DNA from: Pseudomonadota bacterium
GTDB taxonomy: Bacteria; Pseudomonadota; Alphaproteobacteria; Rhodobacterales; Rhodobacteraceae
Reading direction: 5' to 3'
Length of the DNA: 64,000 bases
NCBI GenBank assembly: GCA_020161655.1
Contig: JAIUPC010000019.1
Coordinates: 186,001-250,000, forward strand
In this document: in pieces, positions 18,613-36,993 of the stretch
How positions within the stretch are numbered: the stretch's first letter is position 1
Layout of the letters: every line of letters starts with the position of its first letter
Position numbers and translations under genes: made by a program
The notes under the pieces: generated by a model
Told to the model about the DNA's origin: nothing
The model's input: the letters and a program-made list of their open reading frames with translations, nothing else
The model's database searches: none

Positions 18613-18636
18613 GGGGCCAGCCCGAAGGCCGGCCCC
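18613..18636 (-). other. UUCG-capped stem-loop after smoE
   Basis: On the transcribed strand a 10-bp stem (GGGGCCGGCC with GGCTGGCCCC, one G-U pair) closes a TTCG loop, an exceptionally stable tetraloop. It starts 9 bases past the smoE stop codon, with no T-run after it. It likely protects the smoE mRNA 3' end or causes partial termination before smoF. Confidence 0.7.
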
Positions 18637-18645
18637 GACGTGTCG

Positions 18646-19956: not shown

Positions 19957-19972
19957 AATTTCCTCCCAGAAG

Positions 19973-20029
19973 AATGAGCAATTGCCCATTCAGTGCGCAT
20001 ATGCTCATATTACTGCGGCATTTTGTCAA
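19973..20029 (-). promoter_or_regulatory. smoE promoter with tandem SorC-type operators
   Basis: A perfect -35 hexamer TTGACA lies at 20024-20029 (minus strand). Downstream are two related palindromes: AATGAGCAATTGCCCATT (19973-19990, 16 of 18 positions symmetric) and TGCGCATATGCTCA (19994-20007). Their centres are 19 bp apart. Both match TGAGCA-WW-TGCTCA, so they look like two copies of one operator overlapping the -10 region and transcript start. The SorC-type regulator is encoded next door. Confidence 0.65.
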
Positions 20030-20081
20030 CCGGAAAAATTTGTCATTTCAAAGAAGAAATTACCCCGCGGAGGCCGGCCGC

Positions 20082-21703: not shown

Positions 21704-21758
21704 CGTCCCCCTCGTCTCACACGCGCGAGTATAGGCCGGCGCGCGGCGGGGGGAAGCG

Positions 21759-22571
21759 TCAGCCCTGCATGTCGCGCTGGTAGATCCAGTCATGGTCGGG
21801 ATCGTTCTGGAAGCGCCAGTTGCGGCGCGGGCCGGCCATGACGTTGAGGTAGTAAAGCTCGTACCCATAGGGCGCGCCGCAGGGGTGATGGCCTTTCGGC
21901 ACAAGGACGACTTCGTGGTTCTTCACCGCGATCGTCTCATCAAGGCTGCCATCCTCGGTATAGACCCGCTGAAGCCCGAAGCCCTGGGGCGGGTTCAGGC
22001 GATGGTAGTAGCTTTCCTCCAGATAGGTCATCCGGGGGAAGTCATCCTCGTCATGGCGATGGCTCGGGTAGGACGACCAGTTGCCCTGCGGGGTGAAGAC
22101 CTCTGTCACCAGAAGGCTGTCGGCCGCGTCCCGCGCCTCCATGGCGATGTTGTTGACGAAGCGGGTATTGGCGCCGGTGCCGCGCTGCGTGAGTTCGATC
22201 CCCTCGGGGCCAAGCTTCTGCGCCTTGTGGTTGCCCTTCCCCGGCGCGGCGCAGACCGCGAGCGTGCAATCGGTCGTGGCGACGGCTTGCCAGTCGCTGT
22301 CGTTCGGCACGTAAAGGCAATGCGGCGGGGTCTTTTCGAAGACATCCATCCTTTCGCCCATCTCGCCGAAATCCACCCCCCCGGCGGAGAGCTTCGCCTT
22401 GCCCTCGACGAGGACAAGGATCACCTCGCGGTCGCCCGTCGCCTCGGCCGCCGTCTCGCCGGGTTTCAGCCGATAGAGGCCAAAGCCCACATAGCCCCAG
22501 CCGGCGCTTTCCGGTGTCACATCATGGACCTTGCCGGTCGTGCCGGCTGGTTTCACCAGAAGCTTGCTCAT
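21759..22571 (-). CDS. iolB: 5-deoxy-glucuronate isomerase
   Basis: Converts 5-deoxy-D-glucuronate to 2-deoxy-5-keto-D-gluconate, the fourth step of myo-inositol degradation. The 270-residue length and the double cupin layout fit IolB. The metal-site region reads SYPSHRHDEDD (about 166-176), followed by LEESYYHRL and later GHHPCGAPYGYELYYLNVMAG, a family hallmark. The start lies 4 bp after the stop of the small membrane protein gene, and the operon continues from iolE. All conserved histidines expected for the metal site appear intact. Confidence 0.94.
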   Translation of the reverse strand: MSKLLVKPAGTTGKVHDVTPESAGWGYVGFGLYRLKPGETAAEATGDREVILVLVEGKAKLSAGGVDFGEMGERMDVFEKTPPHCLYVPNDSDWQAVATTDCTLAVCAAPGKGNHKAQKLGPEGIELTQRGTGANTRFVNNIAMEARDAADSLLVTEVFTPQGNWSSYPSHRHDEDDFPRMTYLEESYYHRLNPPQGFGLQRVYTEDGSLDETIAVKNHEVVLVPKGHHPCGAPYGYELYYLNVMAGPRRNWRFQNDPDHDWIYQRDMQG

Positions 22572-22840: not shown

Positions 22841-23752
22841 TCAGCCGTGCGCGTCGATCTTCAGGCCCGAGGCACGGCAGATGTCCACGATATGGTCATA
22901 GCCGAGCTTTGAATAGTCATAAGGCGTAGCCTTGGCCGGGTCCTGTTCCGCCTCGACGACGATCCAGCCCTCGTAGCCCATCTTCGCCAGTTCATCGGTC
23001 ACGGCGGCGAAGTCGATGGAGCCTTCAATGTCGCCCGGAACGGTGAACGCGCCCGCGATAACACCGTCAAGGAAGCTCTTGTTTTCGGCGCGGATTTTCC
23101 TGGTGACGTCTTCGCGCACATCCTTGAAGTGGACATGTTTCACCCGGTCGCCCCAACGGCGGAGCGTGTCAAGCACATCGGCACCGCCGAACTTCAGATG
23201 CCCGGTGTCGAAGAGGAGCGTGACCTCGGGGGTCGAGCCTTCCATCAGCGCATCCACATCCTCCTGATCCTCGATCATCGAGCCCATGTGGTGGTGATAG
23301 GCCAGCAGCATCCCCTCGCCCGCCATCCACTTCGCAAGCTCGCTGAGCTTCGCCGCGTAAGCCTTCACTTCCGAACGGGTAAGTTTTGGCCGATTGTTGA
23401 CCGGCGTGGCGATGTCGCCCTGCACGGTGTTGGAGCATTCGGCATAGACGAGGCAGGGCGATTTCAGCGCCACGAATTGCTCGACCTGCTGGCGGACGGC
23501 CTCGATCTCTTCCTTCACCGAGTTCTTCATCAGGTTGCCGGAACACCAACCACCGCAAAGCGCGATGTCATACTTGTTGAGGTAAGCCTTCAGCCCCTCG
23601 GTGTCCAGCGGCATCCGGCGGCCGCGCTCGACACCGGTATAGCCGATCTCGCGCGCTTCCTTCAGCGCCTGTTCCATCGTGTAGGCCGCGGTCAGGTCCG
23701 GCAGGTCGTCGTTCTGCCAGGCAATCGGGGAAATGCCGATCTTAACGCTCAT
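22841..23752 (-). CDS. iolE: Myo-inosose-2 dehydratase
   Basis: Dehydrates 2-keto-myo-inositol (scyllo-inosose) to 3D-(3,5/4)-trihydroxycyclohexane-1,2-dione, the second step of inositol catabolism. The 303-residue sequence is an AP-endonuclease-type TIM barrel beginning KIGISPIAWQNDD, a signature of IolE. Metal ligand candidates are in LAYHHHMGSMIE, LLFDTGHLKFGG and VKHVHFKDV. It starts one base after the iolD stop and is followed by the small membrane protein gene. Length is usual for the family. Confidence 0.95.
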   Translation of the reverse strand: MSVKIGISPIAWQNDDLPDLTAAYTMEQALKEAREIGYTGVERGRRMPLDTEGLKAYLNKYDIALCGGWCSGNLMKNSVKEEIEAVRQQVEQFVALKSPCLVYAECSNTVQGDIATPVNNRPKLTRSEVKAYAAKLSELAKWMAGEGMLLAYHHHMGSMIEDQEDVDALMEGSTPEVTLLFDTGHLKFGGADVLDTLRRWGDRVKHVHFKDVREDVTRKIRAENKSFLDGVIAGAFTVPGDIEGSIDFAAVTDELAKMGYEGWIVVEAEQDPAKATPYDYSKLGYDHIVDICRASGLKIDAHG

Positions 23753-23753: not shown

Positions 23754-25580
23754 TCATGCTCTCTCTTTCACAGCCTTTTCATAGGCTTGCCGTGCTTTTC
23801 TAACTTGTTCCCGGTCCGAGACCTCGGGCACCGCCACGTCCCACCAGTGACCGGCCTTGCCGAAGCCCGGCCCGTTGGTCGGATCGGTGTCGATGACGAT
23901 CACGCTCGGGATGTGGCGCCCGCGCGCCGCGGCGATCTGCGCCTCAAGATCGGCGATGCCCGTGGCCTTGACCGCATGGGCGCCCATCGAGGCGGCATGG
24001 CCGACATAGTCGATCTCAGGCTGATCCTCGACGGCGCTGTCGATATAGAGGTTGTTGAAGCCCGCACTCCCGGTGCCGCGCTGCAAGCGGTTGATGCAGC
24101 CGTATCCCCGGTTGTCGGTCAGGACGACGGTGAAGGGCACCCGGCGCATCACCGCCGTTGCAAGCTCCGAATTCGCCATCATGTAGCTGCCGTCGCCGAC
24201 AAAGCAGATGACCTCGCGGTCGGGGGCGGCGAGCTTCACGCCCATCGCGCCGGCGATCTCATAGCCCATGCAGGAAAAGCCGTATTCCATATGGTAGCCG
24301 CGCTCAGACGCCTGCCAGAGCAGCTTCAGCGCCCCCGGCATGGTCCCCGCCGCGCACATGGCGATGGCGTCCTTGCCGGTCGCGCGCTGCACCGCGCCGA
24401 TGACCTGCGCATCCGTGGGGAGCGCATTGCCGTCCTTAGGTGCCGCGCAATGGGCATCGACGGCGGCGAGCCAGTCGGCGCGGGCCCTGGCATCGACAAC
24501 GCCCTTGTAGCTGCCGATGGCCGCCGTCAGCTTCTCCAGCGCCGCTTTCGCGTCGGCGACAAGGCTCACCGCCCCATGCTTACCGGCGTCATAGGGCTGG
24601 ACGTTGACCGAGACGAGCCTGACCCCCGGCGCCTTGAAAAGCGACCACGAGCCGGTCGTAAAATCCTGAAACCGTGTTCCGACGCCGATCACCAGATCGG
24701 CGACCTCAGCCGCCGCATTGGCGGCTGCGGAGCCGTCGACGCCGCTCGCGCCGAGGTTCATCGGATGCGCCTGCGCCACGGCGGATTTCCCTGCCTGCGT
24801 CTCGATGATCGGAATGTTGAAGCGGGTGGCGAAGTCGCCAAGCGCCACTTCGGCGCCGGAATAGATCACCCCGCCGCCCGCCACGATCACCGGGCGCTTG
24901 GCGGCGCGGATCAGACCCGCCACATCCTCGACCTCGCGCATGTCCGGTTCCGGGCGGCGGATGCGCCAGACCTTCGGCGCGAAGAACGCCTCCGGCCAGT
25001 CATAGGCCTCGGCCTGCACGTCCTGACAGAAGGAGAGCGTTACGGGTCCTGAGTTCGCCGGATCGGTCATCATGGCGAAGGCGCGCGGCAGCGCCGTCAG
25101 AAGCTGTTCGGCCCGCATGATCCGGTCGAAATAGCGGCTGACCGGGCGGAAGCAGTCATTGGCGCTGACGGTGCCATCATCGAAATCCTCGATCTGTTGC
25201 AGGACCGGGTCCGGCGCGCGGTTGGCGAAGACATCGCCGGGGATCAGAAGGATCGGCAGCCGGTTCACATGTGCCAGCGCCGCCGCCGTCACCATGTTCG
25301 TGGCCCCTGGCCCGATCGAGGAGGTGACGGCCATCGCGCGCCTGCGCGACAACTGCTTCGTATAGGCTATGGCGGTATGGGCCATGGTCTGTTCGTTCTG
25401 GCCGCGCCAGGTCGGGAAGTCATCCTTCGCCGCATGAAGCGCCTCGCCAAGGCCCGCCACATTGCCATGGCCGAAGATCGCCCAGCAACCGGCGATGAAA
25501 CGCGTCCCATCCTCGTTCATCTGCGCCGAAAGATAGCGCACCATCGCCTGCGAGGCGGTTAACCTTATCGTCTTCGTCAT
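23754..25580 (-). CDS. iolD: 3D-(3,5/4)-trihydroxycyclohexane-1,2-dione acylhydrolase
   Basis: Thiamine-diphosphate enzyme that opens the inositol-derived ring to 5-deoxy-D-glucuronate. From ATG 25580 it has 608 residues, as expected; the frame is open upstream into iolC, but that part is not IolD-like. The N-terminal Pyr domain contains IAGCWAIFGHGNVAGLGEAL with the cofactor-activating Glu, and the C-terminal PP domain has the ThDP motif GDGSYMMANSELATAVMRR with NRGYGCIN further on. It starts five bases after the iolC stop and ends one base before iolE, so these genes form one transcript. Confidence 0.95.
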   Translation of the reverse strand: MTKTIRLTASQAMVRYLSAQMNEDGTRFIAGCWAIFGHGNVAGLGEALHAAKDDFPTWRGQNEQTMAHTAIAYTKQLSRRRAMAVTSSIGPGATNMVTAAALAHVNRLPILLIPGDVFANRAPDPVLQQIEDFDDGTVSANDCFRPVSRYFDRIMRAEQLLTALPRAFAMMTDPANSGPVTLSFCQDVQAEAYDWPEAFFAPKVWRIRRPEPDMREVEDVAGLIRAAKRPVIVAGGGVIYSGAEVALGDFATRFNIPIIETQAGKSAVAQAHPMNLGASGVDGSAAANAAAEVADLVIGVGTRFQDFTTGSWSLFKAPGVRLVSVNVQPYDAGKHGAVSLVADAKAALEKLTAAIGSYKGVVDARARADWLAAVDAHCAAPKDGNALPTDAQVIGAVQRATGKDAIAMCAAGTMPGALKLLWQASERGYHMEYGFSCMGYEIAGAMGVKLAAPDREVICFVGDGSYMMANSELATAVMRRVPFTVVLTDNRGYGCINRLQRGTGSAGFNNLYIDSAVEDQPEIDYVGHAASMGAHAVKATGIADLEAQIAAARGRHIPSVIVIDTDPTNGPGFGKAGHWWDVAVPEVSDREQVRKARQAYEKAVKERA

Positions 25581-25584: not shown

Positions 25585-27489
25585 TCATCCTTTCGCGGCA
25601 GACCGCGCCTTGTCCCAGACCTTGCAGAGCCGGTCGAAATTGCCAGCCATCTCGGCGACAGCCTCGGCATCGGTCATTTCGCCCGCCATCCATTTCTGCG
25701 CCGGCCCGGCGAAGATCGTGCGGCCAACGGCAAAGCCCTTGACTAAGGGATGCCGCGCCGCCTCGGCGAAGCTTTCCGCCAGTTCCGCCTCACCCGAACC
25801 CAGCCCCAGCACGACGATGCCGCGCGTATAGGGATCACGCGAAGTGATGGCGTCCGAGGCGGCCTTCCAGGCGGCCTCGGTCTTCATTGGCTCCAACTTC
25901 CACCAGTCGGGGTAGATGCCGATGTCATAGAAGCGGGTGATGATATTAGCGGTGGTCTGGTCCGTTACCGGCGCGACCTTCGAGGGGATCACCTCCAGCA
26001 GGAACTCCAGCCGGTTGCGGCGGCAGGCGTTGAAAAGCCGCGTCACCACGGCTTCCTGTTCGGCCTTCATCTCTGCCGTGTCGTCGGGGTGGTAGAAGCA
26101 GAGGACCTTGACGACATGATCGAGCGGCCATTCGTCCAAACCGCCGAAGTCCGGCCCGATCTCCGGTTCCAGCGTCAGGGGCCGGGAGCCCGGCCATTCG
26201 ACGGGCCGGCCGATCCAGAGGCCACGGCCAGCGGCGGCATAGAGCGCGTCGCGCCCGAGGCGGCTGTCGCAGAGAAGACCGTAGCCGGGCTTGCCATCCG
26301 CGACACTTGCCGCAGCTTCAAGGCAGAGCTCCTTGAATTTGCCGATCTTTTTCGGATCGGCGCCGGGAATGTCCTCCAACTGCATCCGGTGGTCGAAGGC
26401 GAAGACCCGCATCGTCGACCAGTCGCCCTTGCGGTTGGTGGCCCAATGGACCTGCTCAAGCTCGCGGTCCTTGCGAAGCGCCTTTTCCTCCACGCCGCGC
26501 TTGAGGAAGAACTGCAACTCCTCCCAGCTCGGGTAGGCAGGGGTGCAGCCGTGGCGCGAAACGGCGAAGGCGCCGCAGGCGTTGGCGTACATGAGCGCCG
26601 TCGGCCAGTCCTGCCCGGTCAGCCAGCCTTTCAGAAGGCCCGCGAAGAACCCGTCGCCCGCGCCGAGGACGTTGAAGACCTCGATCGGGAAGCCGGGGCC
26701 GCTCTCGCCATCATCCAGACTATCGGGAACCGCGCCGGTGAAGGCCACCGCCCCCATCGGGCCGCGCTTGCAGACGAGCGTCGCCTTTGACACGGCACGG
26801 ACCGCCCGCAAGGCCGCGATGGTGTCGGTGGTGCCGCCGGCGATGTGGAACTCTTCTTCCGTGCCGACGATCAGGTCGAAGTAGTGCAGATGCGCCTGCA
26901 GCTTCGCCGTGACCTTGGCGCTTTCCACGAAGCGGCTTTCGCCCGCGCCATGCCCCGCCACGCCCCAGAGGTTTGGCCGGTAGTCGATGTCGAGCGCGGT
27001 CTGAAGCCCATGCTTGCGCGCGAGCTTCAGCGCCTTCAGGGTCGCGGCCTCAACCCTCGGGTGGCTCAGATGCGTGCCCGTGGCAACGACCGCGCGGGAC
27101 GAGGCGATGAACGCCTCGTCGATATCGCTTTCGTCAAGCGCCATGTCGGCACAGTTTTCCCGGTAGAAGATCAGCGGGAACTGGTGCTGGTCGCGGATGC
27201 CGAGCAGCACCAGCGCCGTCAGACGCTCCGGGTCGGTCTTGACGCCCTCGACATTCACCCCCTCGCGGGCCAGCTCCTCGCGGATGAAGCGGCCCATATG
27301 CTCATCGCCGACACGGGTGATGAGCGCGGATTTGAGGCCAAGCCGGGCGGCGCCGGCGGCGATATTGGTGGGCGATCCGCCGATGTATTTGCGGAAGGAC
27401 CCCATATCCTCAAGCCGGCCGCCGACCTGCGCGCCGTAAAGATCGACCGAAGACCGGCCGATGGTGATGACGTCGAGAGCCTTTGTCAT
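25585..27489 (-). CDS. iolC: Bifunctional 5-dehydro-2-deoxygluconokinase / DUF2090 aldolase-like protein
   Basis: The first 325 or so residues are a PfkB/ribokinase-type kinase: it starts DVITIGRSSVDLYG, contains GGSPTNIAAGAARLG, and has the catalytic-Asp motif VLGAGDGFFAGLLKGWL at about 270-285. This half phosphorylates 2-deoxy-5-keto-D-gluconate. The remaining 300 residues (from about MRVFAFDHRMQLED) are the DUF2090 domain, related to class I fructose-bisphosphate aldolases and thought to cleave the product to dihydroxyacetone phosphate and malonic semialdehyde. The fusion explains the absence of a separate iolJ. A malonic semialdehyde dehydrogenase (iolA) is not in the window. It starts 6 bp after iolG's stop. 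Confidence 0.95.
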   Translation of the reverse strand: MTKALDVITIGRSSVDLYGAQVGGRLEDMGSFRKYIGGSPTNIAAGAARLGLKSALITRVGDEHMGRFIREELAREGVNVEGVKTDPERLTALVLLGIRDQHQFPLIFYRENCADMALDESDIDEAFIASSRAVVATGTHLSHPRVEAATLKALKLARKHGLQTALDIDYRPNLWGVAGHGAGESRFVESAKVTAKLQAHLHYFDLIVGTEEEFHIAGGTTDTIAALRAVRAVSKATLVCKRGPMGAVAFTGAVPDSLDDGESGPGFPIEVFNVLGAGDGFFAGLLKGWLTGQDWPTALMYANACGAFAVSRHGCTPAYPSWEELQFFLKRGVEEKALRKDRELEQVHWATNRKGDWSTMRVFAFDHRMQLEDIPGADPKKIGKFKELCLEAAASVADGKPGYGLLCDSRLGRDALYAAAGRGLWIGRPVEWPGSRPLTLEPEIGPDFGGLDEWPLDHVVKVLCFYHPDDTAEMKAEQEAVVTRLFNACRRNRLEFLLEVIPSKVAPVTDQTTANIITRFYDIGIYPDWWKLEPMKTEAAWKAASDAITSRDPYTRGIVVLGLGSGEAELAESFAEAARHPLVKGFAVGRTIFAGPAQKWMAGEMTDAEAVAEMAGNFDRLCKVWDKARSAAKG

Positions 27490-27494: not shown

Positions 27495-28499
27495 TCAGCC
27501 CGTGATTTCCGAAACCTTGACCGCGCGGCCTTCCTTGACCGACTTAACTGCGGCATCGGCAAGCGCCAGCGCGGCCAGACCGTCCTGGCCCGAGGGCGAG
27601 ATCTTTGCGCCGCCCGTGACCGCCGCGATGAAGGCGGCGATTTCGGCGGCATAGGCCTCGGTGTAGCGGGTCATGAAGAAGTCGTGGAGCGGCGGGCGGT
27701 TGTAGCCGGCGGCAGAAGCGATCTCGATCGACACCGGGCGCTGGTTTTCGGCGGACGCGACGCCTTCGGAGCCGTGCACTTCGATCCGCTGGTCATAGCC
27801 ATAGGTGGCGCGGCGGGAGTTGGAGATGACGGCCTGCTTGCCCGACTTCGTGGTCAGGATGACCGAGGCGGAATCCCAGTCGCCGGCCTTGCCGATTTCC
27901 GGATCGACCAGCACGGCGGCGGAGGCCATCACCGTCTCGACCTCTTCGCCCAAGAGGAAGCGGGCCATGTCGAAGTCATGTATCGTCATGTCGCGGAAGA
28001 TGCCCCCCGAGACCTTGATGTAGCTGACCGGCGGCGCGCCGGGATCGCGCGAGGTGATCGTCACCATCTCAACCTTGCCGATCTTGCCGGCGTCGATGGC
28101 ATCACGGACCGCCTTGAAATGCGGATCGAAGCGGCGGTTGAAGCCGACCATCAGCTTGGCCTTGGTCTGATCCACCACCTTGAGGCAGGCCTTCACCCGC
28201 TCAAGCGACAGATCGACCGGCTTTTCGCAGAAGATCGCCTTGCCGGCGCGGGCGAAGCGCTCGATCAGGTCGGCATGGGTGTTGGTGGGCGTGCAGATCA
28301 CCACGGCGTCGATGTCCTTCGCCGCCTCGATGGCTTCGATGCTGCGCACCTCGCAGCCGTATTGCGCGGCAATCGCTTCGGCGGCCGGGGCCATCGCATC
28401 GGCGACGGCGACGAGCGTGGCATTGGGGTCGCCGCTGACGGCTTTCGCATGGACCTTGCCGATGCGCCCCGCGCCCAGAACCGCAAACCTGACAGTCAT
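27495..28499 (-). CDS. iolG: Inositol 2-dehydrogenase
   Basis: NAD-dependent oxidation of myo-inositol to 2-keto-myo-inositol, the first catabolic step. The 334-residue protein begins VRFAVLGAGRIGKVHAK, a GFO/IDH/MocA-type Rossmann motif, and carries the catalytic CEKPVDLS motif (Lys at about 97) and the GGIFRDMTIHDFDMARF segment with the active-site Asp/His pair. It lies between the ABC ATPase gene (72-bp gap) and iolC (6-bp gap). Some family members act on scyllo-inositol or O-methylated inositols, which would be relevant given the mocDE genes nearby. Confidence 0.93.
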   Translation of the reverse strand: MTVRFAVLGAGRIGKVHAKAVSGDPNATLVAVADAMAPAAEAIAAQYGCEVRSIEAIEAAKDIDAVVICTPTNTHADLIERFARAGKAIFCEKPVDLSLERVKACLKVVDQTKAKLMVGFNRRFDPHFKAVRDAIDAGKIGKVEMVTITSRDPGAPPVSYIKVSGGIFRDMTIHDFDMARFLLGEEVETVMASAAVLVDPEIGKAGDWDSASVILTTKSGKQAVISNSRRATYGYDQRIEVHGSEGVASAENQRPVSIEIASAAGYNRPPLHDFFMTRYTEAYAAEIAAFIAAVTGGAKISPSGQDGLAALALADAAVKSVKEGRAVKVSEITG

Positions 28500-28570: not shown

Positions 28571-29341
28571 TCAGGCGACGGCAGCGTCGCTCGCCCCTTT
28601 GACGCCGGTGATGTAGCTGACGATGTCGTTGCCGTCGGTCTCGTCCTTGTTGAGGCTCGCCACGATCCGGCCCCGGCGGAAGACCACGATCCGGTCCACG
28701 AGGTCGAAGACCTGGCGGAGGTTGTGGCTGATGAGGATCATGGGAATCCCGCGTTCCTTCAAGCCCCGGATGATGTTCTCGACCTGCGCGGTTTCCTGCA
28801 CCCCAAGCGCTGCCGTCGGCTCATCCATGATCACCATCTTCGAGGCGAAGGCAGCGGTGCGGGCGATGGCCACGCATTGGCGCTGACCGCCCGACATGTT
28901 GCGGATGGCGTTATCGACATTGGGGATCTTGACCGCCGTGGTCTTCAAGGCCTCAAGCGTCCGGTCGCGCATGGCCTTGCGGTCGAGGACCGAGAAGGGG
29001 CCGAGCTTGAAGCGGAAGATCTCGCGCCCGAGGAAGAGGTTCGACGGCACGTCAAGATCGTCGGCAAGGGCCAGCGTCTGGAACACCGTCTCGATCCCGG
29101 CCTCGCGGGCCTCAAGCGGGTCCTTGAACTCGACATTCGAGCCGTCGAAATGGATCTCACCCGAGGAGTGCTTTTCGACCGCCGTGATCTGGCGCACGAA
29201 GGTCGACTTGCCCGCGCCGTTGTCGCCGACGATGGCGACATGCTCGCCGCGACGAAGGGTGAAGTTCGCATCCTCAAGCGCATGGACGCCGCCGTAGCGC
29301 TTGGTCAGGTTGCGGGTTTCAAGAATGATGTCGTTGCTCAT
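28571..29341 (-). CDS. Inositol ABC transporter ATP-binding protein
   Basis: ATPase of the ribose/inositol (CUT2-type) importer, 256 residues with one nucleotide-binding domain. Walker A is GDNGAGKST (about 37-45), the signature is MSGGQRQCVAIARTA, and Walker B is MVIMDEPTAALG. Many CUT2 importers, including the Caulobacter inositol system, use a double-length ATPase; this one is single, as in the FrcA group, so it must dimerise. It follows the permease gene by 12 bp and precedes iolG. Inositol specificity is inferred from location. Confidence 0.9.
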   Translation of the reverse strand: MSNDIILETRNLTKRYGGVHALEDANFTLRRGEHVAIVGDNGAGKSTFVRQITAVEKHSSGEIHFDGSNVEFKDPLEAREAGIETVFQTLALADDLDVPSNLFLGREIFRFKLGPFSVLDRKAMRDRTLEALKTTAVKIPNVDNAIRNMSGGQRQCVAIARTAAFASKMVIMDEPTAALGVQETAQVENIIRGLKERGIPMILISHNLRQVFDLVDRIVVFRRGRIVASLNKDETDGNDIVSYITGVKGASDAAVA

Positions 29342-29353
29342 GGTCCTGCCCCC

Positions 29354-30424
29354 TTACCCGCGCGACCGGCCGCGCTGGCGCCATTGGTCGAGAACGACCG
29401 CGCCGACGATGATCACGCCCTTGACCATCTCCTGATAGTAGGCGTCGAGCCTGAGGAACGTGAAGCCCGAGATGATGACGCCGAAGATCAGCGCGCCAAG
29501 CACCGTCCCGAGGATCGAGCCGCGCCCGCCCTGCAATGAGACGCCGCCGATGACCGCCATGGCGATGGCGTCAAGCTCGTACATCACCCCCATGCCCGCC
29601 TGCGCCGTCAGGTTCTTGGAACTGAGCACGATGGCGGCGAGGGCGGCGAGCATCCCGGCGATGGAATAGACCAGGATCTTGTGACGGTTGACGTTGATGC
29701 CCGACATCCGCGCCGCCTGTTCGTTCGAGCCGATGGCGTAGCAGTGCTTTCCGTATTTCGTGTAGGTCATGATGGCGTGGAAGAGGAGCGCCAGAAGGAC
29801 GAAGATCACGACCGGCATCAGACCCTTGCCGATGGCGGCATAGGATTCGGTCGGGAATGAGATCGGGTTGCCGTTCGACCACCATTTCGACAGGCCGCGC
29901 GCCGTCACCATCATGCCAAGGGTGGCGATGAAGGGCGGGATGCGGGTGGTGGCGATCAGCCCGCCGTTGATGAAGCCCGCGATGAGGCCGCAGCCGAGGC
30001 CGACGAGCACCGGCACGAGGACCGGAAGGTCCATCGCCCAGTCGCCGAAGATGGCCTTCGGGTTGGGGTTGCCGTTGACGAGGGCGGTCTGCGCGAAGCT
30101 CATGGTGATCATCGCGGTCGCGCCGACGATGGAGCCGGAAGACAGGTCGATGCCGCCGTTGATGATGACCTGCGTCACACCGATGGCGATGATGCCGACG
30201 ATGGACACCTGCAGGATGATGATGTTCAGCCGCTGCCAGTTGAAGATGCCCTCAACATTCTCGCGCGTGTTGAAAAGGAAGCTGTCGCCGATGAACAGGC
30301 GGCCGAGAAGCTCGAATGCGACGACAATCGCGACAAGGGCGATGAAGACGTTCAGTTCCTGCGGGCGTTCCCGCTTTGCCGGATCGTATTTCAGGCCGCC
30401 GAGGCCATGTGCAGCTTGCGCCAA
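29354..30424 (-). CDS. Inositol ABC transporter permease
   Basis: Membrane subunit of the CUT2-type importer, about 356 residues with eight or more hydrophobic segments. Family features include GGIDLSSGSIVGATAM (about 95-110), GLIATTRIPPFIATLGMM and the coupling region GINVNRHKILVYSIAGM. I prefer TTG 30424 as start because AAGGGAAGGAACC precedes it; the frame continues to 30484, but that part overlaps the stem-loops downstream of the binding-protein gene. A single permease gene is normal for CUT2 systems, which homodimerise. Confidence 0.88.
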   Translation of the reverse strand: MAQAAHGLGGLKYDPAKRERPQELNVFIALVAIVVAFELLGRLFIGDSFLFNTRENVEGIFNWQRLNIIILQVSIVGIIAIGVTQVIINGGIDLSSGSIVGATAMITMSFAQTALVNGNPNPKAIFGDWAMDLPVLVPVLVGLGCGLIAGFINGGLIATTRIPPFIATLGMMVTARGLSKWWSNGNPISFPTESYAAIGKGLMPVVIFVLLALLFHAIMTYTKYGKHCYAIGSNEQAARMSGINVNRHKILVYSIAGMLAALAAIVLSSKNLTAQAGMGVMYELDAIAMAVIGGVSLQGGRGSILGTVLGALIFGVIISGFTFLRLDAYYQEMVKGVIIVGAVVLDQWRQRGRSRG

Positions 30425-30449
30425 TGCGAGGTTCCTTCCCTTAAGTCCG

Positions 30450-30515
30450 GGCCCGCGCCGGGGCGCGGGCCGGATCAAGTCCACGTTGGTAGGCCGGAGC
30501 GGCTGACGCCGCTCC
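30450..30515 (-). other. Two stem-loops between inositol binding-protein and permease genes
   Basis: GGAGCGGC (30496-30503) pairs with GCCGCTCC (30508-30515) over a 4-nt loop, starting 15 bp after the binding-protein stop. A second hairpin pairs GGCCCGCGC (30450-30458) with GCGCGGGCC (30463-30471). No T-run follows in the direction of transcription. Confidence 0.65.
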
Positions 30516-30530
30516 GTTCATCCGGTCGGA

Positions 30531-31478
30531 TCAGTTCTTCGCGAGGTAGTCGCCGATGTTCTTCGGCGTCACGAGCTCGAACGGCACCCAGACCTTCTGG
30601 TCCACCGCTTCGCCCTTGGCGAGCTTCACCGCCGCGTCGAGCGCGCCCTGGCCCTGGCCGGCGGCGTTCTGGAACACGGTCACGTCGAGATCGCCCGCCT
30701 GCATCGCCGCAAGCGCGTCCTGCGTGGCATCGACACCGCCGACAACGATGGTGCCCATGTCGAGCCCGGCGGCCTTCATCGCCTGGATCGCGCCGATGGC
30801 CATTTCGTCGTTGTTGGAGATCACGCCGTCAAAGGCCGCGCCGGTCGAAAGCCAGTTGGTCATGAGGTTGGTGGCCTCTTCGCGCGACCAGTTCGCCGTC
30901 TGCTCGTCGATGATGTTGAGCTTGACCGCGCATTTGCCGCCGTCGATCACGTCATGGATGTCGGCAGTCCGCTGCACGGCGGCCTGGTTCGAAAGCTCGC
31001 CCATCATCACATAGACATTGGCTTCGGTCTTGCCCTGATCCTCGGCGAAGATGCGGCAAACCTCGATGGTTTCAAGCGTGCCGGAGTCGACTTCGTTCGA
31101 GGCCACGAAAGCCTGATTGTCGGGCAGCGTGTCGATGTTGACCGGCTGGCGGTTGACGTAGACCAAGGGCACGTTGGCTGCGGCGGCGGCATCGGACATC
31201 GCCTGCGTGGCCGAGGTATCGACCGGGTTGACGACGATCGCGCTCACGCCCGAGGCGATGAAGTTGTTGATCTGGTCAAGCTGCTTGGCCACATCGTTCT
31301 GCGCGTCTTCGATCTGCACGCCGATGCCGTTGTCGTCGGCGTACTTCTGGATGCCGTTCCTGAGGACGGTCAGGAAGTTGTCGTCGAACTTCGCCATCGA
31401 AACGCCGACGTTCTCGGCGGCCATGGCGGTAGTGCCCATGAGTGCGGCAAGACCGGCCGCGAACACGATTTTCTTCAT
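30531..31478 (-). CDS. Inositol ABC transporter substrate-binding protein (IbpA-like)
   Basis: Periplasmic binding protein of 315 residues with a Sec signal peptide (MKKIVFAAGLAALMGTTAMA). The mature part AENVGVSMAKFDDNFLTVLRNG and the ligand-site segments VNRQPVN, ISNNDEMAIGAIQAMK and VVGGVDATQDALAAM belong to the ribose/galactose/inositol-binding (periplasmic-binding-protein type I) group. The start follows AGGAGGAAG. It is first of the three transporter genes and upstream of iolG-C-D-E-B, which makes myo-inositol the likely ligand. Strong stem-loops flank the gene on both sides. Confidence 0.9.
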   Translation of the reverse strand: MKKIVFAAGLAALMGTTAMAAENVGVSMAKFDDNFLTVLRNGIQKYADDNGIGVQIEDAQNDVAKQLDQINNFIASGVSAIVVNPVDTSATQAMSDAAAAANVPLVYVNRQPVNIDTLPDNQAFVASNEVDSGTLETIEVCRIFAEDQGKTEANVYVMMGELSNQAAVQRTADIHDVIDGGKCAVKLNIIDEQTANWSREEATNLMTNWLSTGAAFDGVISNNDEMAIGAIQAMKAAGLDMGTIVVGGVDATQDALAAMQAGDLDVTVFQNAAGQGQGALDAAVKLAKGEAVDQKVWVPFELVTPKNIGDYLAKN

Positions 31479-31570: not shown

Positions 31571-32389
31571 TCAGGCGGTCAGCTCGGCCACCTGGGACGA
31601 GATGAAATCGAAGGACCGGGCGAGTTCGGCCTCCGGATTGCGATATGCGTGAACCTCGGGGGCGAAGCTTTCCATCGAGATCGGCCCCTTGAAGCCGGCG
31701 GCGCGGAGCGCGCGGATCTGCGCGACATTGCCAAGCCGGTCCTTGTCGTCGACGAGGATGCGGTGCTGGTCGCCCATCTCGTCGACCGACAGCGCCGGAT
31801 CGACGACGCCGGAAATATGGATGATGCCGGTATGGGCGGGGAAATAGTCGCCGCCGCCGGCAAGGGTGTGGTGGAAGGTGTCATGGACGAGCTTGAAGCG
31901 GCCAGAGGCGCCGAGCGCCTCGATCGCCTCCACCGCTTCTGATTTGTAGCGAAGGGCGCAGACCGCGAAGCCAAGGGGTTCAACCATGCCGACCAGCCCG
32001 TGATCCTCAAGCATCGGCTTCAGGTCACGGAGCGCGAGCCGCAGGTTCGCCTGCCTCTCACCATTGCCCATGCCAAGCCCGTCGTTGCGCGGGATCAGGC
32101 TGACCGCCTCGGCCCCCGCCGCCTTGGCGATCTTCATCAGCGCCAGCGCCTCATCGGCCTTGGCCGGGGACCAGTCGTTGAAGCGCTTGACCTCGGCCAC
32201 GGCAAGGAGCCTGAGGCCCTTCGACCGCGCCAGTTCCCCGCCCGCTTCCGGCGACATGCCATCGAAGAGCGCCTGCGGCAGGTCGTTCCTGACCTCGATC
32301 CCGACAAGGCCAAGATCGGCGGCCATCTCGACAAGCCGGGCGTAGTTCAGGCGCGCCACAGTCATGTGGTTCAATGCGAATGGCAGCAT
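31571..32389 (-). CDS. IolI-like sugar isomerase/epimerase (TIM barrel)
   Basis: A 272-residue AP-endonuclease-type TIM barrel related to IolI, the 2-keto-myo-inositol isomerase that lets D-chiro-inositol enter the pathway. Candidate metal ligands are Glu in GMVEPLGF, Asp/His in LVHDTFHHTLAGG, His in IIHISGVVD and Glu in ISMESFAPE. The ATG at 32389 follows GGGAGGAACG; the frame's earlier GTG at 32407 lies inside that binding site. It is the first gene after the LacI regulator and before the transporter, an operon position that supports a role in inositol isomer conversion. Confidence 0.85.
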   Translation of the reverse strand: MLPFALNHMTVARLNYARLVEMAADLGLVGIEVRNDLPQALFDGMSPEAGGELARSKGLRLLAVAEVKRFNDWSPAKADEALALMKIAKAAGAEAVSLIPRNDGLGMGNGERQANLRLALRDLKPMLEDHGLVGMVEPLGFAVCALRYKSEAVEAIEALGASGRFKLVHDTFHHTLAGGGDYFPAHTGIIHISGVVDPALSVDEMGDQHRILVDDKDRLGNVAQIRALRAAGFKGPISMESFAPEVHAYRNPEAELARSFDFISSQVAELTA

Positions 32390-32470
32390 GTCTGGCGTTC
32401 CTCCCACAGGTCCGACCCGGTCGCCACCGGGGTTCGGAATGTCAGGAAGGTTGCGCCCTGCCCAACCGAC

Positions 32471-32545
32471 TCGTCAACGCATCGGGGTGCAGTTTCCATC
32501 ATTCATGACGAGTTACCCATCATGCCGATGATGTCTTTTCGTCAT
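32471..32545 (-). promoter_or_regulatory. Iol operon upstream region with TGACGA-type motifs
   Basis: Between the LacI gene and the IolI-like gene, ATGACGA (32505-32511) faces its inverted copy TCGTCAT (32539-32545), with another TCGTCA at 32471-32476. Between the arms is an imperfect palindrome CATCATGCCGATGATG (32518-32533). The same TGACGA word recurs upstream of the LacI gene, suggesting one regulator acts on both sides. Function is inferred. Confidence 0.45.
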
Positions 32546-33576
32546 CAGATGGATTCGCCGATGTAGAGATCGGGCCTGAGGAAATGCTGGCCGGTAATCT
32601 CGGAAGGCCCGTTTGCGACCGCCGCCACCATCAGCACCACCAGATCGCGGCAAAGCGTGGCGAGGGGCGTGGCGATGACCAGAACCGCATAGCGGTCCTG
32701 CAGGGCGGAGCGGCTTTCGGGCGTCAGTTCGTTGATGACCAGCGCCACTTCGCCCGGCGCCCGCGCCTCGCGCAGCGCGGCAATGGCGCCCTCCATCCCG
32801 CCGCCGGCGCAGTAGATGCCGCGCAAGTCGGGATGGCGGGCCAGAAGGTCGAGCGTTGCCTCATAGGTCAGTTGCCGGGTCTCAAGGTTCACCAGCGTAT
32901 CGAGGATGGTGAACTGCGGCGCGAACTCGCGGAAGTAGCTGCGAAAGCCTGTTTCGCGCAGCTCATGCCCATGCCAGCGGTAGCCGCCGACGAAGACCGC
33001 GATCTTGCCCGGCTTGTGCGTTGCGGTCGTGATCATCGACGCGGCGATGCGGCCAACCTTCAGATTGTTGAGGCCAACGTAGTTTTCCCGCACGCCCTGG
33101 GCATAGTCATTGAGAAGCGAAAAGCACGGCACGCCGCTGTCGCGCAGGTCCTGCACAACCTCGGTCACTTCGTGATGGGTGACGGCAGAGGCAGCGATCG
33201 CATCCACCCTGCCCTTCATGCTGGCCATCAGCCGGGCGAAGTCGGCGGGCGACTGTGAGGGCGAATATTCGAAGATCGCCTCAGCATGGACGCCCGTGGC
33301 AGCCGTGACCGCGCGCCCGATCTCGGCGGCGAAGTTCTGGTAGAAGGCCTGCTTTTCCTTGTGGAGGACAAAGCCGAAGCGCATCTGCGGCAGCTCGGTC
33401 TGGATGCGCTGGCCGATCAGCCCGGCGGCATGGTAGCCGATCCGCTGCGCCGCCTCGAAAACCTGGCGCGCGGTTGCCTCGCGCACCTTCTCGCGTCCGT
33501 TCAGGACACGGTCCACGGTGGCGACGCTGACCCCCGCCTCACGCGCCACATCGGTGATCGTCTTTCTGCGGGCCAT
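32545..33576 (-). CDS. LacI-family regulator, probable inositol regulator
   Basis: A 343-residue LacI-type regulator. The DNA-binding helix-turn-helix is ITDVAREAGVSVATVDRVLNGR (residues 7-28); the VDR variant in place of VSR is seen in sugar-alcohol regulators. The C-terminal domain has the periplasmic-binding-protein fold of ribose/inositol type. It lies between the inositol operon (same strand, downstream) and the divergent mocDE genes, so it is well placed to control both. Repeated TGACGA words occur on both sides of the gene. Inositol or an inositol derivative is the expected effector. Confidence 0.9.
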   Translation of the reverse strand: MARRKTITDVAREAGVSVATVDRVLNGREKVREATARQVFEAAQRIGYHAAGLIGQRIQTELPQMRFGFVLHKEKQAFYQNFAAEIGRAVTAATGVHAEAIFEYSPSQSPADFARLMASMKGRVDAIAASAVTHHEVTEVVQDLRDSGVPCFSLLNDYAQGVRENYVGLNNLKVGRIAASMITTATHKPGKIAVFVGGYRWHGHELRETGFRSYFREFAPQFTILDTLVNLETRQLTYEATLDLLARHPDLRGIYCAGGGMEGAIAALREARAPGEVALVINELTPESRSALQDRYAVLVIATPLATLCRDLVVLMVAAVANGPSEITGQHFLRPDLYIGESI

Positions 33577-33584
33577 GTGATTTC

Positions 33585-33637
33585 TGACGAAATGCCATCA
33601 CTCATTCTGACGATAATTGACGATAACTGACGAGAAA
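33585..33637. promoter_or_regulatory. TGACGA repeat array between the LacI regulator and mocD
   Basis: Three tandem units with an exact 10-bp period, TGACGATAAT, TGACGATAAC and TGACGAGAAA, occupy 33608-33637, and a fourth TGACGA is at 33585-33590. One helical turn per unit places all copies on one DNA face. It lies in the divergent promoter region, so it is a candidate operator for the LacI gene itself and for mocD. Confidence 0.6.
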
Positions 33638-33683
33638 GGAAGAGCCGGTCTGGCGTGATGCGCCACACCGCCCTTAACCTTCC

Positions 33684-33719
33684 CCTCCGACGGCCCGATC
33701 ATGGAACGGGCCTCGGAGG
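33684..33719 (+). promoter_or_regulatory. Hairpin covering the mocD ribosome binding site
   Basis: CCTCCGA (33684-33690) pairs with TCGGAGG (33713-33719) and GGCCCG (33692-33697) pairs with CGGGCC (33707-33712), leaving one bulged C and a 9-nt loop. The 3' arm contains GGAGG, 7 bases before the mocD ATG. A 13-bp stem of this strength would hide the ribosome binding site unless opened. Confidence 0.6.
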
Positions 33720-33726
33720 AGGACAG

Positions 33727-34812
33727 ATGGCCAAAAGGGATTACAGCCTCTTGGGTGAGGATTCGCGCCGCGCGGTCGAAAACGGCCTTGCCGCCGCCGA
33801 ATGGTATCATACCGAGATCCCGCGCAAGGAGATGAAGGCGCTGATGGCGCGGGAGGATCAGCCCGCGATCCGCGATTCGATCATCCTTTACGGGTCGATG
33901 ATCCTCTTTGCCGGTCTCGGCATCTGGCTCTGGCCCTCATGGTGGTCGGCCCCCTTCTGGCTCGCCTACGGCGTCCTTTACGGCTCGGCGATGGATTCGC
34001 GCTGGCATGAATGCGGCCACGGCACGCCTTTCCGCACCCCGTGGATGAACGTCGTCGTCTACCAGATCGCCAGTTTCTGCATGGTTCGGAACCCGGTGAC
34101 GTGGCGCTGGAGCCATGCCCGCCACCATACCGATACCGTGATCGTCGGCCGCGATCCGGAGATCGTGGCGATGCGGCCCCCGGCGCTTTTCCGCATCTTC
34201 CTCAACTTCTTTGGCATTATCGACGCCTGGAACGGCTGGGCGCGGATGCTTCTGAATGCCTCCGGCAGGCTCGACCCCGAAGAGGCGACCTATATCCCCG
34301 AAAGCGAACAGCCGAAGGTGATCCGTGTCGCGCGGATCTGGACCGCGATCTACGCGGCGACGATCCTGCAGGCGCTTGCGATGCAGTCGATCCTGCCCCT
34401 GATGGTGATCGGCCTGCCGCGGCTGTACGGCGCCTGGCACCATGTCCTGACCGGCATCCTCCAGCACGCGGGCCTTGCCGATAACGTCATCGACCACCGG
34501 ATGAACAGCCGCACGGTCTACATGAACCCGATCAGCCGCTTCATCTACTGGAACATGAACTACCATGTCGAACACCACATGTTCCCGATGGTGCCCTATC
34601 ACCGGCTGCCGGAGCTGCACGCAAAGATCATGCATGACCTGCCGCCACCGAACACGTCGATCTGGCAGGCCTATGCCGAGGTCTGGCCGGCACTGAAGCG
34701 GCAGCTTCGCTACGAGGACTACTTCCTCCGCCGCGACCTGCCGGCGACGGCGAAGCCCTACCGGGAAGATTTCCATAAAGACGCGCTCGGCCATGCCGTG
34801 CCGGCCGAATGA
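33727..34812 (+). CDS. MocD-like membrane di-iron oxygenase (fatty acid desaturase superfamily)
   Basis: A 361-residue integral-membrane oxygenase with the three histidine boxes of desaturases and hydroxylases: HECGH (94-98), HARHH (130-134) and HVEHH (280-284), plus QHAG at 246-249. Several hydrophobic segments lie between them. It resembles MocD, which with MocE acts in rhizopine (3-O-methyl-scyllo-inosamine) catabolism. The next gene encodes a matching Rieske ferredoxin. Position beside an inositol pathway and its LacI regulator supports an inositol-derived substrate, probably an O-methyl ether that is oxidatively demethylated. No ferredoxin reductase (MocF) is adjacent. A fatty-acid or other alkyl substrate cannot be excluded. 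Confidence 0.85.
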   Translation: MAKRDYSLLGEDSRRAVENGLAAAEWYHTEIPRKEMKALMAREDQPAIRDSIILYGSMILFAGLGIWLWPSWWSAPFWLAYGVLYGSAMDSRWHECGHGTPFRTPWMNVVVYQIASFCMVRNPVTWRWSHARHHTDTVIVGRDPEIVAMRPPALFRIFLNFFGIIDAWNGWARMLLNASGRLDPEEATYIPESEQPKVIRVARIWTAIYAATILQALAMQSILPLMVIGLPRLYGAWHHVLTGILQHAGLADNVIDHRMNSRTVYMNPISRFIYWNMNYHVEHHMFPMVPYHRLPELHAKIMHDLPPPNTSIWQAYAEVWPALKRQLRYEDYFLRRDLPATAKPYREDFHKDALGHAVPAE

Positions 34813-34839
34813 CCACTGATTGAAAGGGAGGCAACACCT

Positions 34840-35154
34840 ATGAGCAACTGGATCGACGCCTGTTCGACCGACGAGATCGACGAAGAAGACGTGATGCGCT
34901 TCGACCACGATGGCCGGACCTTCGCCATCTACCATTCGCCGGATGGCGAGTTCTTCGCCACCGACGGGCTTTGCTCGCACGAGAAGGTCCACCTCGCCGG
35001 GGGCCTCGTCATGGACTACATGATCGAATGCCCGAAACATAACGGCCAGTTCGATTACCGGACCGGCGAGGCGATGCGCGCGCCGGTCTGCGTCAACCTT
35101 CGGACCTATCCGGTCAAGGTCGAAGGCGACCGCGTGTTGCTTCAGGTCGGCTGA
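34840..35154 (+). CDS. MocE-like Rieske [2Fe-2S] ferredoxin
   Basis: A 104-residue soluble Rieske protein that would pass electrons to the MocD-like oxygenase. Cluster ligands are Cys45 and His47 (CSHEKVH) and Cys64 and His67 (CPKHNGQ), with 16 residues between the two pairs, as in biphenyl-type and MocE ferredoxins. Start at 34840 follows AAGGGAGG. It begins 27 bp after mocD and its stop is one base before the PanB-like gene, so the three are one unit. Confidence 0.92.
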   Translation: MSNWIDACSTDEIDEEDVMRFDHDGRTFAIYHSPDGEFFATDGLCSHEKVHLAGGLVMDYMIECPKHNGQFDYRTGEAMRAPVCVNLRTYPVKVEGDRVLLQVG

Positions 35155-35155
35155 G

Positions 35156-35968
35156 ATGGCATTCGAGCCCTCGGCCAAGCACACCGTCGCCAGCCTCCGC
35201 GCGGCGCGCGGCAAGCACAAATACGCCATGCTCCGCGTCGAGACGCTGGCTGAGGCGGCGGCAGCCGAAGCGGCGGGGGTCGAGATGTTCTCGGTCCCGC
35301 CCGCCATGATCATGGACCGCCGCTTTCGCGAGGTGGCGCCCAATGCCTTCGCCTTCCCCGGCGACAATTTCTATGAAATCGGCGGGACGGAAGACTTCCT
35401 GCGCTGGGCCTTCCCGCTGGTGAAGCACGGCGCCGATGCGGTCTATTGCTCCGGCAGCCTCGCCACCGTCCGGGCGCTGGCCGATCACGCGATTCCGGTC
35501 TGCGGCCATGTCGGGCTGATCCCTTCGAAACGAACCTGGACGGGCGGCTTCAGGGCGGTGGGCAAGACGCTCGACAGCGCCAAGCGGGTCTGGGACCAGT
35601 GCCTGGCGCTTGAGGAAGCCGGCGCCTTTGCCGTGGAGATAGAGGTGGTGCCGGATGCAATCACGGCGGCGATTGCCGAAAAGACCTCGCTGTTTTTGCT
35701 GTCGATGGGCGGGGGTGCTGCCGGCGATGCCCAGTACCTTTTCTCGGACGACGTGCTGGGCCAGAACCGGGGCCACACCCCGCGTCATGCCAAGGTCTAT
35801 GCCGATTTCGCCGCCGAAGAGGACCGGTTGCAGGAGATGCGGATCACCGCGATGCGCAGCTTTGCCGATGAGGTGCATTCCGGCGCATATCCTTCCGACG
35901 ACTATCTGGTGAAGGCCGAGACGGAGGTAGCGCTCGACTTCCGCGACTGGCTGTCGCGGCAAAGGTAG
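35156..35968 (+). CDS. Divergent PanB-like (ketopantoate hydroxymethyltransferase superfamily) protein
   Basis: A 270-residue TIM-barrel protein clearly related to PanB: IPVCGHVGLIPSKRTWTGGF (113-132), EEAGAFAVEIEVVP (153-166, with Glu163 at the catalytic-Glu position) and a DDVLGQNRGHTPRHAKVYADF stretch. But the canonical metal-site V-G-D-S near residue 47 is VPPA, and the ketopantoate-site K-L-E-G-G is YCSGS (97-101). It therefore probably no longer makes ketopantoate. PanB uses methylene-tetrahydrofolate, so a role in handling the one-carbon unit released by MocDE is conceivable, but this is inference. It is one base downstream of mocE. Confidence 0.8.
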   Translation: MAFEPSAKHTVASLRAARGKHKYAMLRVETLAEAAAAEAAGVEMFSVPPAMIMDRRFREVAPNAFAFPGDNFYEIGGTEDFLRWAFPLVKHGADAVYCSGSLATVRALADHAIPVCGHVGLIPSKRTWTGGFRAVGKTLDSAKRVWDQCLALEEAGAFAVEIEVVPDAITAAIAEKTSLFLLSMGGGAAGDAQYLFSDDVLGQNRGHTPRHAKVYADFAAEEDRLQEMRITAMRSFADEVHSGAYPSDDYLVKAETEVALDFRDWLSRQR

Positions 35969-36051: not shown

Positions 36052-36993
36052 ATGCCCGCCGACTATGCCCGCCTGATCGACGCCGAGACCTGGGCCTTCA
36101 TCCGGGAAACCGAAACCTGGTATCCGCACGAGACGGCGACCTTCACTATCGCGCGCCAGCGCGAGGTCTACGACGCGATGTGCCGCGCCTTTCATCGCGG
36201 CTACCCCGAAGGCATCGCGGCGCGGGACGAGGCGCTGGGCGGCGTGCCCTGCCGGATCTATGATCCGACCCGGCCCGGCGCGGTGACGGTCGTCTATTAC
36301 CACGGCGGCGGCTTGGTGGTGGGCGGGCTGGAAAGCCATGACGATGTCTGCGCCGAAATCTGCGCGGGCACCGGGTATCGCGTGGTCTCGGCCGACTATC
36401 GCCTTTGCCCCGAACACCGCCACCCCGCCGCCTTCGACGATGCGCTGGCCGTAGCCTATGCGGCGGCCGAACGCTTCGGCCAGCCCATTGTGCTGGCGGG
36501 CGACAGCCAAGGCGGCAACCTTGCCGCCACAGTGGCGCACGCGATGCGCGGCTCGGACGTCGAGGTGCGGGGCCAGGTGCTCATCTATCCCGGCCTCGGC
36601 GGCGACAAGACCGGGGCCAGCTACGTGTTTCACGCCAATGCGCCGATGTTGACGCGCGACGACCTCGATTTCTACAGGAGCATCCGCTACGAGGACGGCA
36701 TCGAGCCGCGGGCCGACCCCACCGCCTCGCCGCTGCGCGACACCGACTTTTCCGGCCTGCCCCCCACCGTCGCCATCGGCGCAGAATGCGATCCCCTCTG
36801 CGACGACGCGACCGAATACGCTGCCCGCATCCGCGCCGCCGGTGGCCAAGCCTTGGCCTGGGTCGAGCCGGGCCTCGTCCACGGCTACCTCCGCGCCCGC
36901 GTCACAGTCACCCGCGCGCGCGAAAGCTTCGCCCGGATCAAATCCGCCATATCGGCGCTGGCCGAAGGGCACCTGCCCGCCCCGCCCGCATGA
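36052..36993 (+). CDS. Alpha/beta hydrolase, hormone-sensitive-lipase-type esterase
   Basis: A 313-residue family IV (bacterial HSL) esterase. The oxyanion motif HGGG is at 84-87, the nucleophile Ser152 sits in GDSQG, and Asp247 (in AECDPLCDD) with His277 (in GLVHGY) complete the triad. It starts 83 bp after the PanB-like gene and its stop overlaps the start of the EamA transporter gene in an ATGA. It could belong to the moc unit (for example hydrolysing an ester) or form its own pair with the exporter; spacing favours the latter. Substrate unknown. Confidence 0.9.
   Translation: MPADYARLIDAETWAFIRETETWYPHETATFTIARQREVYDAMCRAFHRGYPEGIAARDEALGGVPCRIYDPTRPGAVTVVYYHGGGLVVGGLESHDDVCAEICAGTGYRVVSADYRLCPEHRHPAAFDDALAVAYAAAERFGQPIVLAGDSQGGNLAATVAHAMRGSDVEVRGQVLIYPGLGGDKTGASYVFHANAPMLTRDDLDFYRSIRYEDGIEPRADPTASPLRDTDFSGLPPTVAIGAECDPLCDDATEYAARIRAAGGQALAWVEPGLVHGYLRARVTVTRARESFARIKSAISALAEGHLPAPPA

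Follow-up and report, generated by a model that had tools for sequence, protein, structure and literature searches.

The mocDEF genes are among those needed for the catabolism of rhizopine, an O-methyl-inositol-amine (PMC10107442, PMC3538637), and appear as rhizopine genes also in PMC6668481; in rhizobia, the arrangement lacI(fixV)-TIM barrel-mocDEF has already been described (PMC3538637). The mocDEF homologues of R. mesoamericanum were up 1.53-2.11x with an exudate having pinitol as its top component (PMC5789663), and in marine bacteria 6-O-methyl-galactose is oxidatively demethylated to formaldehyde by a cytochrome P450 (PMC10033563). We describe a related locus in a 64-kb stretch of DNA from a bacterium of the Rhodobacteraceae (contig JAIUPC010000019.1; "the window" is this whole stretch), in which genes of the mocD and mocE type are followed by a gene for a protein of the PanB family. 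The label PANL is used for this PanB-like third gene and its relatives.

As in the fixV-msi119-mocDEF arrangement of rhizobia (PMC3538637), lacI is divergent from mocD and a TIM-barrel gene lies behind lacI; the window differs in having attached iol genes and PANL as the third gene. With the rhizopine mocDEF genes of S. meliloti L5-30 and R. leguminosarum the locus has in common the tie to inositol degradation, and to a rhizopine-type cluster on a plasmid of S. meliloti RCAM1115 (L016) it is similar in sequence: MocD is 72% and 66% identical (two pieces) and MocE 71%. Unlike the rhizopine system, the window operon has no mocF, its regulator is of the LacI and not the MocR type, and its importer is of the inositol type; PANL, though in the L016 cluster, goes unnamed in the accessible descriptions of that system. 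The marine system relies on a cytochrome P450, whereas the window encodes a membrane di-iron oxygenase and a Rieske ferredoxin.

The words "panB" and "ketopantoate" occur nowhere in the accessible text of PMC3538637, figures aside, and no account of PANL or PanB paired with oxygenases was found in the literature searched, the scope of which left out most subscription journals. The oxygenase half is already known as the rhizopine mocDEF; PANL as a recurring oxygenase partner appears undescribed as far as searched. A first-pass annotation of the window had known of no description of a three-gene set with a PanB relative: this stands, within the same search, for the PanB relative and not for the lacI(fixV)-TIM barrel-mocDEF arrangement (PMC3538637).

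The mocD-mocE-PANL trio

The three open reading frames (ORFs) lie as the first-pass annotation had them, divergent from lacI and with gaps of 27 bp between mocD and mocE (34812 to 34840) and 1 bp between mocE and PANL (35154 to 35156). The best start of mocD is the ATG at 33727, with GGAGGAGG immediately 5' of it; the alternative listed by the program is an upstream GTG at 33655. The translations also bear out the metal ligands claimed for both proteins: all three His boxes of MocD are in place, HECGH (94), HARHH (130) and HVEHH (280), and the intact Rieske ligand motif of MocE, CSH...CPKH, begins at residue 45. The lacI-mocD-mocE arrangement, usually with PANL too, is repeated across many genera and therefore exceeds chance.

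Desaturation of fatty acids was rejected as a role for MocD. The protein matches four NCBIfam families and scores too low for each of them (DesB, for example, 33.6 vs a cut-off of 500); the context of ferredoxin and sugar genes also disfavours it.

PANL is distinct from PanB

The window PANL is under both PanB cut-offs, at half of them or less (NF001452, 113 vs 272; TIGR00222, 102.4 vs 207.55). In the alignment to E. coli PanB (1m3u), G69 stands at the position of D84, Y97 at K112 and S99 at E114, three residues that presumably bind Mg and the 2-oxoacid in PanB, D84 being the presumed Mg ligand; H118 at H136 and E163 at E181 are kept. Conserved residues of PANL, in the numbering of the window protein, are Y97, C98, H118, W128, K137, E163, R210 and H211. 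Mg binding, 2-oxoacid binding and action as the base are presumably the roles of the PanB residues compared. A profile comparison showed that the VGDS motif is replaced and that about 20 residues after it are missing.

These substitutions are general among 153 PANL homologues: the position of D84 is occupied by G in 133, A in 14, S in 4, C in 1 and D in 1, and that of K112 by Y in 143, F in 6, M in 2, I in 2 and K in none, while the H136 and E181 positions are conserved in 153/153. In a quickly built tree with 69 rows, PANL and PanB were split by a branch with 100% SH-aLRT (Shimodaira-Hasegawa-like approximate likelihood ratio test) support, and the genome of the window has, besides PANL, another gene that falls in the true PanB clade. 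Judged by sequence, PANL is distinct from PanB: it shares with it the PF02548 family and the H136/E181 pair, and differs at D84 and K112, in the VGDS region and in its clade.

PANL genes recur beside oxygenases

Relatives of PANL were searched for in 397 genomes across the phylum and in 199 genomes of the family. The 104 loci fetched (listed matches of at least about 130 bits, less three loci of the window's own genome and one listed place) comprised 96 PANL loci, several of which share a genome and are thus non-independent, and 8 loci of another branch; they were compared, with about 8 kb on each side, to 14 true-PanB controls and 2 unrelated stretches.

An oxygenase of the FA_desaturase or FA_hydroxylase type was found within 3 kb of PANL at 72/96 loci (54 and 18, respectively) and within 6 kb at 76/96. 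MocE was encoded within 3 kb at 61 and MocF at 10 of the loci. The true-PanB controls gave 0/14 for oxygenase, MocE, MocF, purU, folD and iol, and 1/14 for an ATP-binding cassette (ABC) ATPase. Among the PANL loci with no oxygenase, L171 and L255 are at contig ends, and the stretches of L228, L236 and L240 contain nothing that matches an oxygenase. On a quickly built tree of PANL the type of oxygenase partner switched at least four times, counting rows with a single partner type. By these partner changes the oxygenase is exchanged while PANL persists.

The set had been presented in the first-pass annotation as one for inositol. For the PANL family as a whole an inositol-only role was rejected, as close iol genes (about 8 kb each side) occur at 9/96 loci and an ABC ATPase within 8 kb at 62/96; for the window locus it was retained.

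A second PF02548 branch, placed between PanB and PANL, accounts for the other eight loci (L187 and L256-L262). In five of them (L256-L259, L261) the PF02548 gene abuts a VanA_C Rieske oxygenase of the vanillate-O-demethylase type, in two (L187, L260) a FA_hydroxylase-family protein is nearby, and L262 has neither. The tblastn seeds alone detected no oxygenase at the eight loci. GcvT-type folate proteins are encoded near the PF02548 gene at L257, L258 and L261 (3/8).

Two further PANL loci occur in the same genome as the window, at C23:334000-352500 (L010) and C17:81500-99000 (L011), each with a lacI, a sugar ABC importer and a membrane protein of the FA_hydroxylase type replacing MocD (62.6 and 69.1 vs 31 bits; mutually 62% identical). 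The C23 locus also has a MocE over the cut-off, and the C17 locus an L-fucose-mutarotase-like gene below the cut-off. By gene content both are candidate demethylation modules for other sugars. At L195:2816-4030, an L-rhamnose mutarotase domain is fused to an amidohydrolase within a PANL/FA_hydroxylase operon, for which a methyl-rhamnose or methyl-fucose pathway is possible.

Formaldehyde dehydrogenase was not seen as a general neighbour of PANL in 18 of the 85 clusters of unknown operon members, a scan and no census; it gave one zinc alcohol dehydrogenase (L233; 295.9 vs a class III cut-off of 543.95).

Association with inositol genes

One scan of named genomes gave 581 confirmed relatives of MocD, and the best 80 loci were surveyed; these are the closest relatives, some of them near kin of one another, and were not drawn at random. 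Beside mocD, MocE was encoded at 73 of the 80 and lacI lay within 600 bp at 73; PANL was found within 3 kb at 57/80 and a MocF-type reductase at 24/80. The lacI-linked mocD-mocE pair also occurs without PANL (L026, L027, L031, L035, L053 and others), at several loci as mocD-mocE alone.

Of the 80 loci, 54 had 9.4 kb or more on either side and were considered well flanked. At 23/54 iol genes were present, and at 28/54 either iol genes or an inositol-type binding protein, distributed by order as 25/35 in Rhodobacterales, 2/15 in Hyphomicrobiales and 1/4 among the unassigned. Plasmids of Marivivens and Aestuarium carry one uninterrupted run, lacI-mocD-mocE-PANL-lacI-TIM-SBP-permease-ATPase-iolG-iolC-iolD-iolE (SBP, binding protein). 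The first-pass annotation had proposed a neighbourhood comparison in which homologues lying mostly away from inositol genes would count against its proposal. Such a separation is found for the wide PANL family and in Hyphomicrobiales; it is not found for the Rhodobacterales orthologues.

An operator-like palindrome, derived from the lacI|mocD gaps of relatives, occurs exactly twice in the window, with one copy to either side of lacI and none in the rest of the 64 kb (0.35 copies expected); two or more copies were obtained in 6/100 shuffles, a test blind to copy positions. The palindrome was present in 23/80 lacI|mocD gaps of the window and its relatives, a circular count as these gaps are the source of the motif. 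A more independent test is provided by the lacI|TIM gaps, 15/41 of which contain it; simple shuffling of the letters gave a mean of 0.04. From its positions, the trio and the importer/iol genes look co-regulated: one LacI regulator, with binding predicted from the common palindrome, probably controls both.

Relation to rhizopine clusters

The L016 cluster of S. meliloti RCAM1115 runs binding protein - regulator - mocD - Rieske - FAD reductase - PANL - purU, so PANL belongs to at least one cluster of the rhizopine type; the regulator exceeds the curated rhizopine MocR cut-off (756.5 vs 650). The mocD gene of this cluster (7251-8314) lacks an annotation, and its match is split into two overlapping pieces, possibly because of a frameshift or a sequencing error.

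The two ties drawn by the first-pass annotation thus gained support, that to inositol from the common palindrome and synteny, and that to the rhizopine system from the MocD/MocE identities and the MocR score. Rhizopine itself, which had been named among the possible substrates, is unlikely here and was set aside: the binding protein of the window scores 29.8 vs the rhizopine binding-protein cut-off of 420.

Folate genes beside PANL

FolD converts 5,10-methylene-tetrahydrofolate to 10-formyl-tetrahydrofolate, from which PurU releases formate, and PanB is by ancestry a methylene-tetrahydrofolate enzyme. A FolD/PurU chain makes sense if the one-carbon unit enters as methylene-tetrahydrofolate.

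At 8 of the best 80 MocD loci, purU (at least 38% identity) lies within 8.5 kb of mocD, and at 9/80 when no identity floor is set, at 8 kb; with one purU per 4 Mb, we calculate that about 0.4 would be expected in 80 loci. Among the named loci purU is found in 7 named genera and 1 metagenome-assembled genome, at differing positions. It lies directly 3' of PANL together with folD in M. huakuii and A. tumefaciens and alone in the same place in S. meliloti, whereas in R. rosettiformans it lies on the other side of lacI, past the importer genes. At L220 the gene order is PANL-folD-purU. These neighbours and the pairing with oxygenases support the one-carbon role that the first-pass annotation had suggested for the PanB relative.

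Proposed pathway and alternatives

Our best reading, which we consider fairly probable, is that MocD-MocE oxidatively demethylates an imported methylated inositol and that PANL handles the formaldehyde; the reactions are deduced from gene content, residues, synteny and the palindrome copies. The O-methyl-inositol, be it ononitol, sequoyitol, bornesitol or pinitol, would enter by the ABC importer and act on the LacI regulator, which would control the trio and the importer/iol genes. With electrons supplied by MocE and by a ferredoxin reductase whose gene lies elsewhere, MocD would hydroxylate the methyl carbon, and the hemiacetal would break down to inositol and formaldehyde. The freed inositol would pass through iolG into the iol pathway; the product might alternatively be chiro-inositol, to be isomerised perhaps by the TIM barrel. 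PANL would remove the formaldehyde, or the hydroxymethyl group, most probably by loading it onto a carrier, for which tetrahydrofolate is the leading candidate.

Several observations weigh against this reading. No mocF reductase lies beside the trio, the best relative in the genome (contig C11) being 39% identical. The L016 binding protein is under the rhizopine cut-off (45.4 vs 420). None of the 11 Rhizobium-labelled MocD loci has iol genes or an inositol-type binding protein within 10 kb, and PANL is absent within 3 kb of mocD at 17/54 well-flanked loci, so that mocD-mocE can dispense with a linked PANL. In the wider PANL set purU is found within 8 kb at 3/96 loci and folD at 1/96. No PurU over the curated cut-off is encoded in the window's genome (best 78.5 vs 285.95), and the folate-to-formate branch is therefore absent there in that form.

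If the trio is a demethylation system, we give the idea that PANL deals in one way or another with the one-carbon unit about the same probability as that system itself. More tentatively, PANL may be a new family: a PanB-fold transferase of formaldehyde (or a hydroxymethyl-hemiacetal) to tetrahydrofolate, serving membrane di-iron oxygenases, and perhaps others, that O-demethylate many different methylated sugars and cyclitols, mainly in Alphaproteobacteria, and making 5,10-methylene-tetrahydrofolate directly, which would bypass the slow uncatalysed reaction. According to He et al. 2020 (PMC7073904), formaldehyde and tetrahydrofolate react without a catalyst at a rate much too low to sustain growth on C1 compounds; PanB was weighed there as a promiscuous catalyst, deletion of panB and ltaE in E. 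coli changed nothing, and an uncharacterised formaldehyde-tetrahydrofolate enzyme could not be excluded.

The trio can also be read with no methyl group involved, MocD/MocE hydroxylating or dehydrogenating a ring C-H of inositol or another sugar and PANL cleaving or rearranging the product. The presence of PANL relatives beside many sugar importers, an L-rhamnose mutarotase fusion, an L-fucose mutarotase-like gene and an alpha-amylase would fit, but methylated substrates are plausible, though unproven, at those loci, mocDEF is part of O-methyl compound catabolism, purU/folD repeatedly adjoin PANL, and the second PF02548 branch abuts oxygenases of the vanillate-O-demethylase type at 5/8 loci; we regard this reading as unlikely. 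If instead the oxygenase demethylates and PANL is not a folate enzyme, PANL could be a formaldehyde:2-oxoacid aldolase, joining for example formaldehyde and pyruvate. This agrees with the PanB family membership, the kept H136/E181 positions and the tetrahydrofolate-independent ketopantoate hydroxymethyltransferase reaction cited in PMC7073904. The replacement of the D84, K112 and E114 positions and of VGDS, with about 20 residues gone, and the purU/folD neighbours, which indicate folate, make it quite improbable.

Finally, PANL might be a second pantothenate enzyme that is incidental in the operon, as its public annotation would have it (3-methyl-2-oxobutanoate hydroxymethyltransferase in 7/7 annotated relative regions compared). 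The scores under the PanB cut-offs, the altered catalytic positions, the true-PanB-clade gene elsewhere in the genome and the oxygenase within 6 kb of most relatives leave this with hardly any probability.

Features of the locus

The coordinates of the trio, the inositol genes and the sequence motifs are collected in Table 1. The iol products (iolG, C, D, E, B) exceed curated cut-offs in 5/5 cases. The full inositol operon that the first-pass annotation had placed behind lacI is thus present; lacI does not head it directly, since the TIM-barrel gene and the ABC importer sit between lacI and iolG. The TIM barrel, which has no NCBIfam match at E 0.01, is 49-50% identical to the gene adjoining rhizobial lacI-mocD.

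Table 1. Coordinates of the features at the mocD-mocE-PANL locus (positions within the window; scores in bits).
Feature	Position	Strand	Remarks
iolB	21759..22571	-	TIGR04378 336.1 vs cut-off 205
iolE	22841..23752	-	TIGR04379 394.5 vs cut-off 290
iolD	23754..25580	-	TIGR04377 872.3 vs cut-off 715
Bifunctional 5-dehydro-2-deoxygluconokinase/phosphogluconate aldolase (iolC type)	25585..27489	-	NF047869 732.6 vs 600
iolG inositol 2-dehydrogenase	27495..28499	-	TIGR04380 430.2 vs cut-off 355
Ribose/inositol-type ABC importer	28571..31478	-	ATPase 28571-29341, permease 29354-30484, binding protein 30531-31478
Xylose-isomerase-like TIM barrel	31571..32407	-	PF01261 72.1; candidate inositol/inosose epimerase or isomerase
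Second palindrome copy	32529..32544		Gap between lacI and TIM-barrel/ABC/iol genes
lacI-family regulator	32545..33576	-	52-54% identity to lacI adjoining rhizobial mocD (fixV-like arrangement)
Operator-like palindrome TGAYG-N6-CRTCA	33585..33600		lacI|mocD gap
Three TGACG direct repeats	33608..33632	+	10-bp period, 5' of mocD
mocD-type membrane di-iron oxygenase (FA_desaturase family)	33727..34812	+	361 aa; PF00487 126 vs cut-off 29.7
mocE-type Rieske [2Fe-2S] ferredoxin	34840..35154	+	104 aa; TIGR02377 172.3 vs cut-off 136.15
PANL (PF02548, PanB family)	35156..35968	+	270 aa; PF02548 128.5 vs 28.7

On the same strand 3' of PANL, after a gap of 83 bp, lies a gene for a hormone-sensitive-lipase-type esterase (36052-36993; LipP1 209.3 bits vs 350). 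Further polyol genes are found near the iol operon, at 808-3414 and 14215-21904 of the window: they code for a xylulokinase (527.1 vs 380.25), a polyol-dehydrogenase-like protein, an ABC importer (identified by eye) and a DeoR/LsrR-like regulator.

Implications

PANL, encoded beside oxygenases expected to release formaldehyde, is a concrete candidate for an enzyme that joins formaldehyde to tetrahydrofolate. If true, this would explain the "pantothenate enzyme" annotations inside sugar operons, and methylated sugars and cyclitols, pinitol among them, would have a route that needs no P450.

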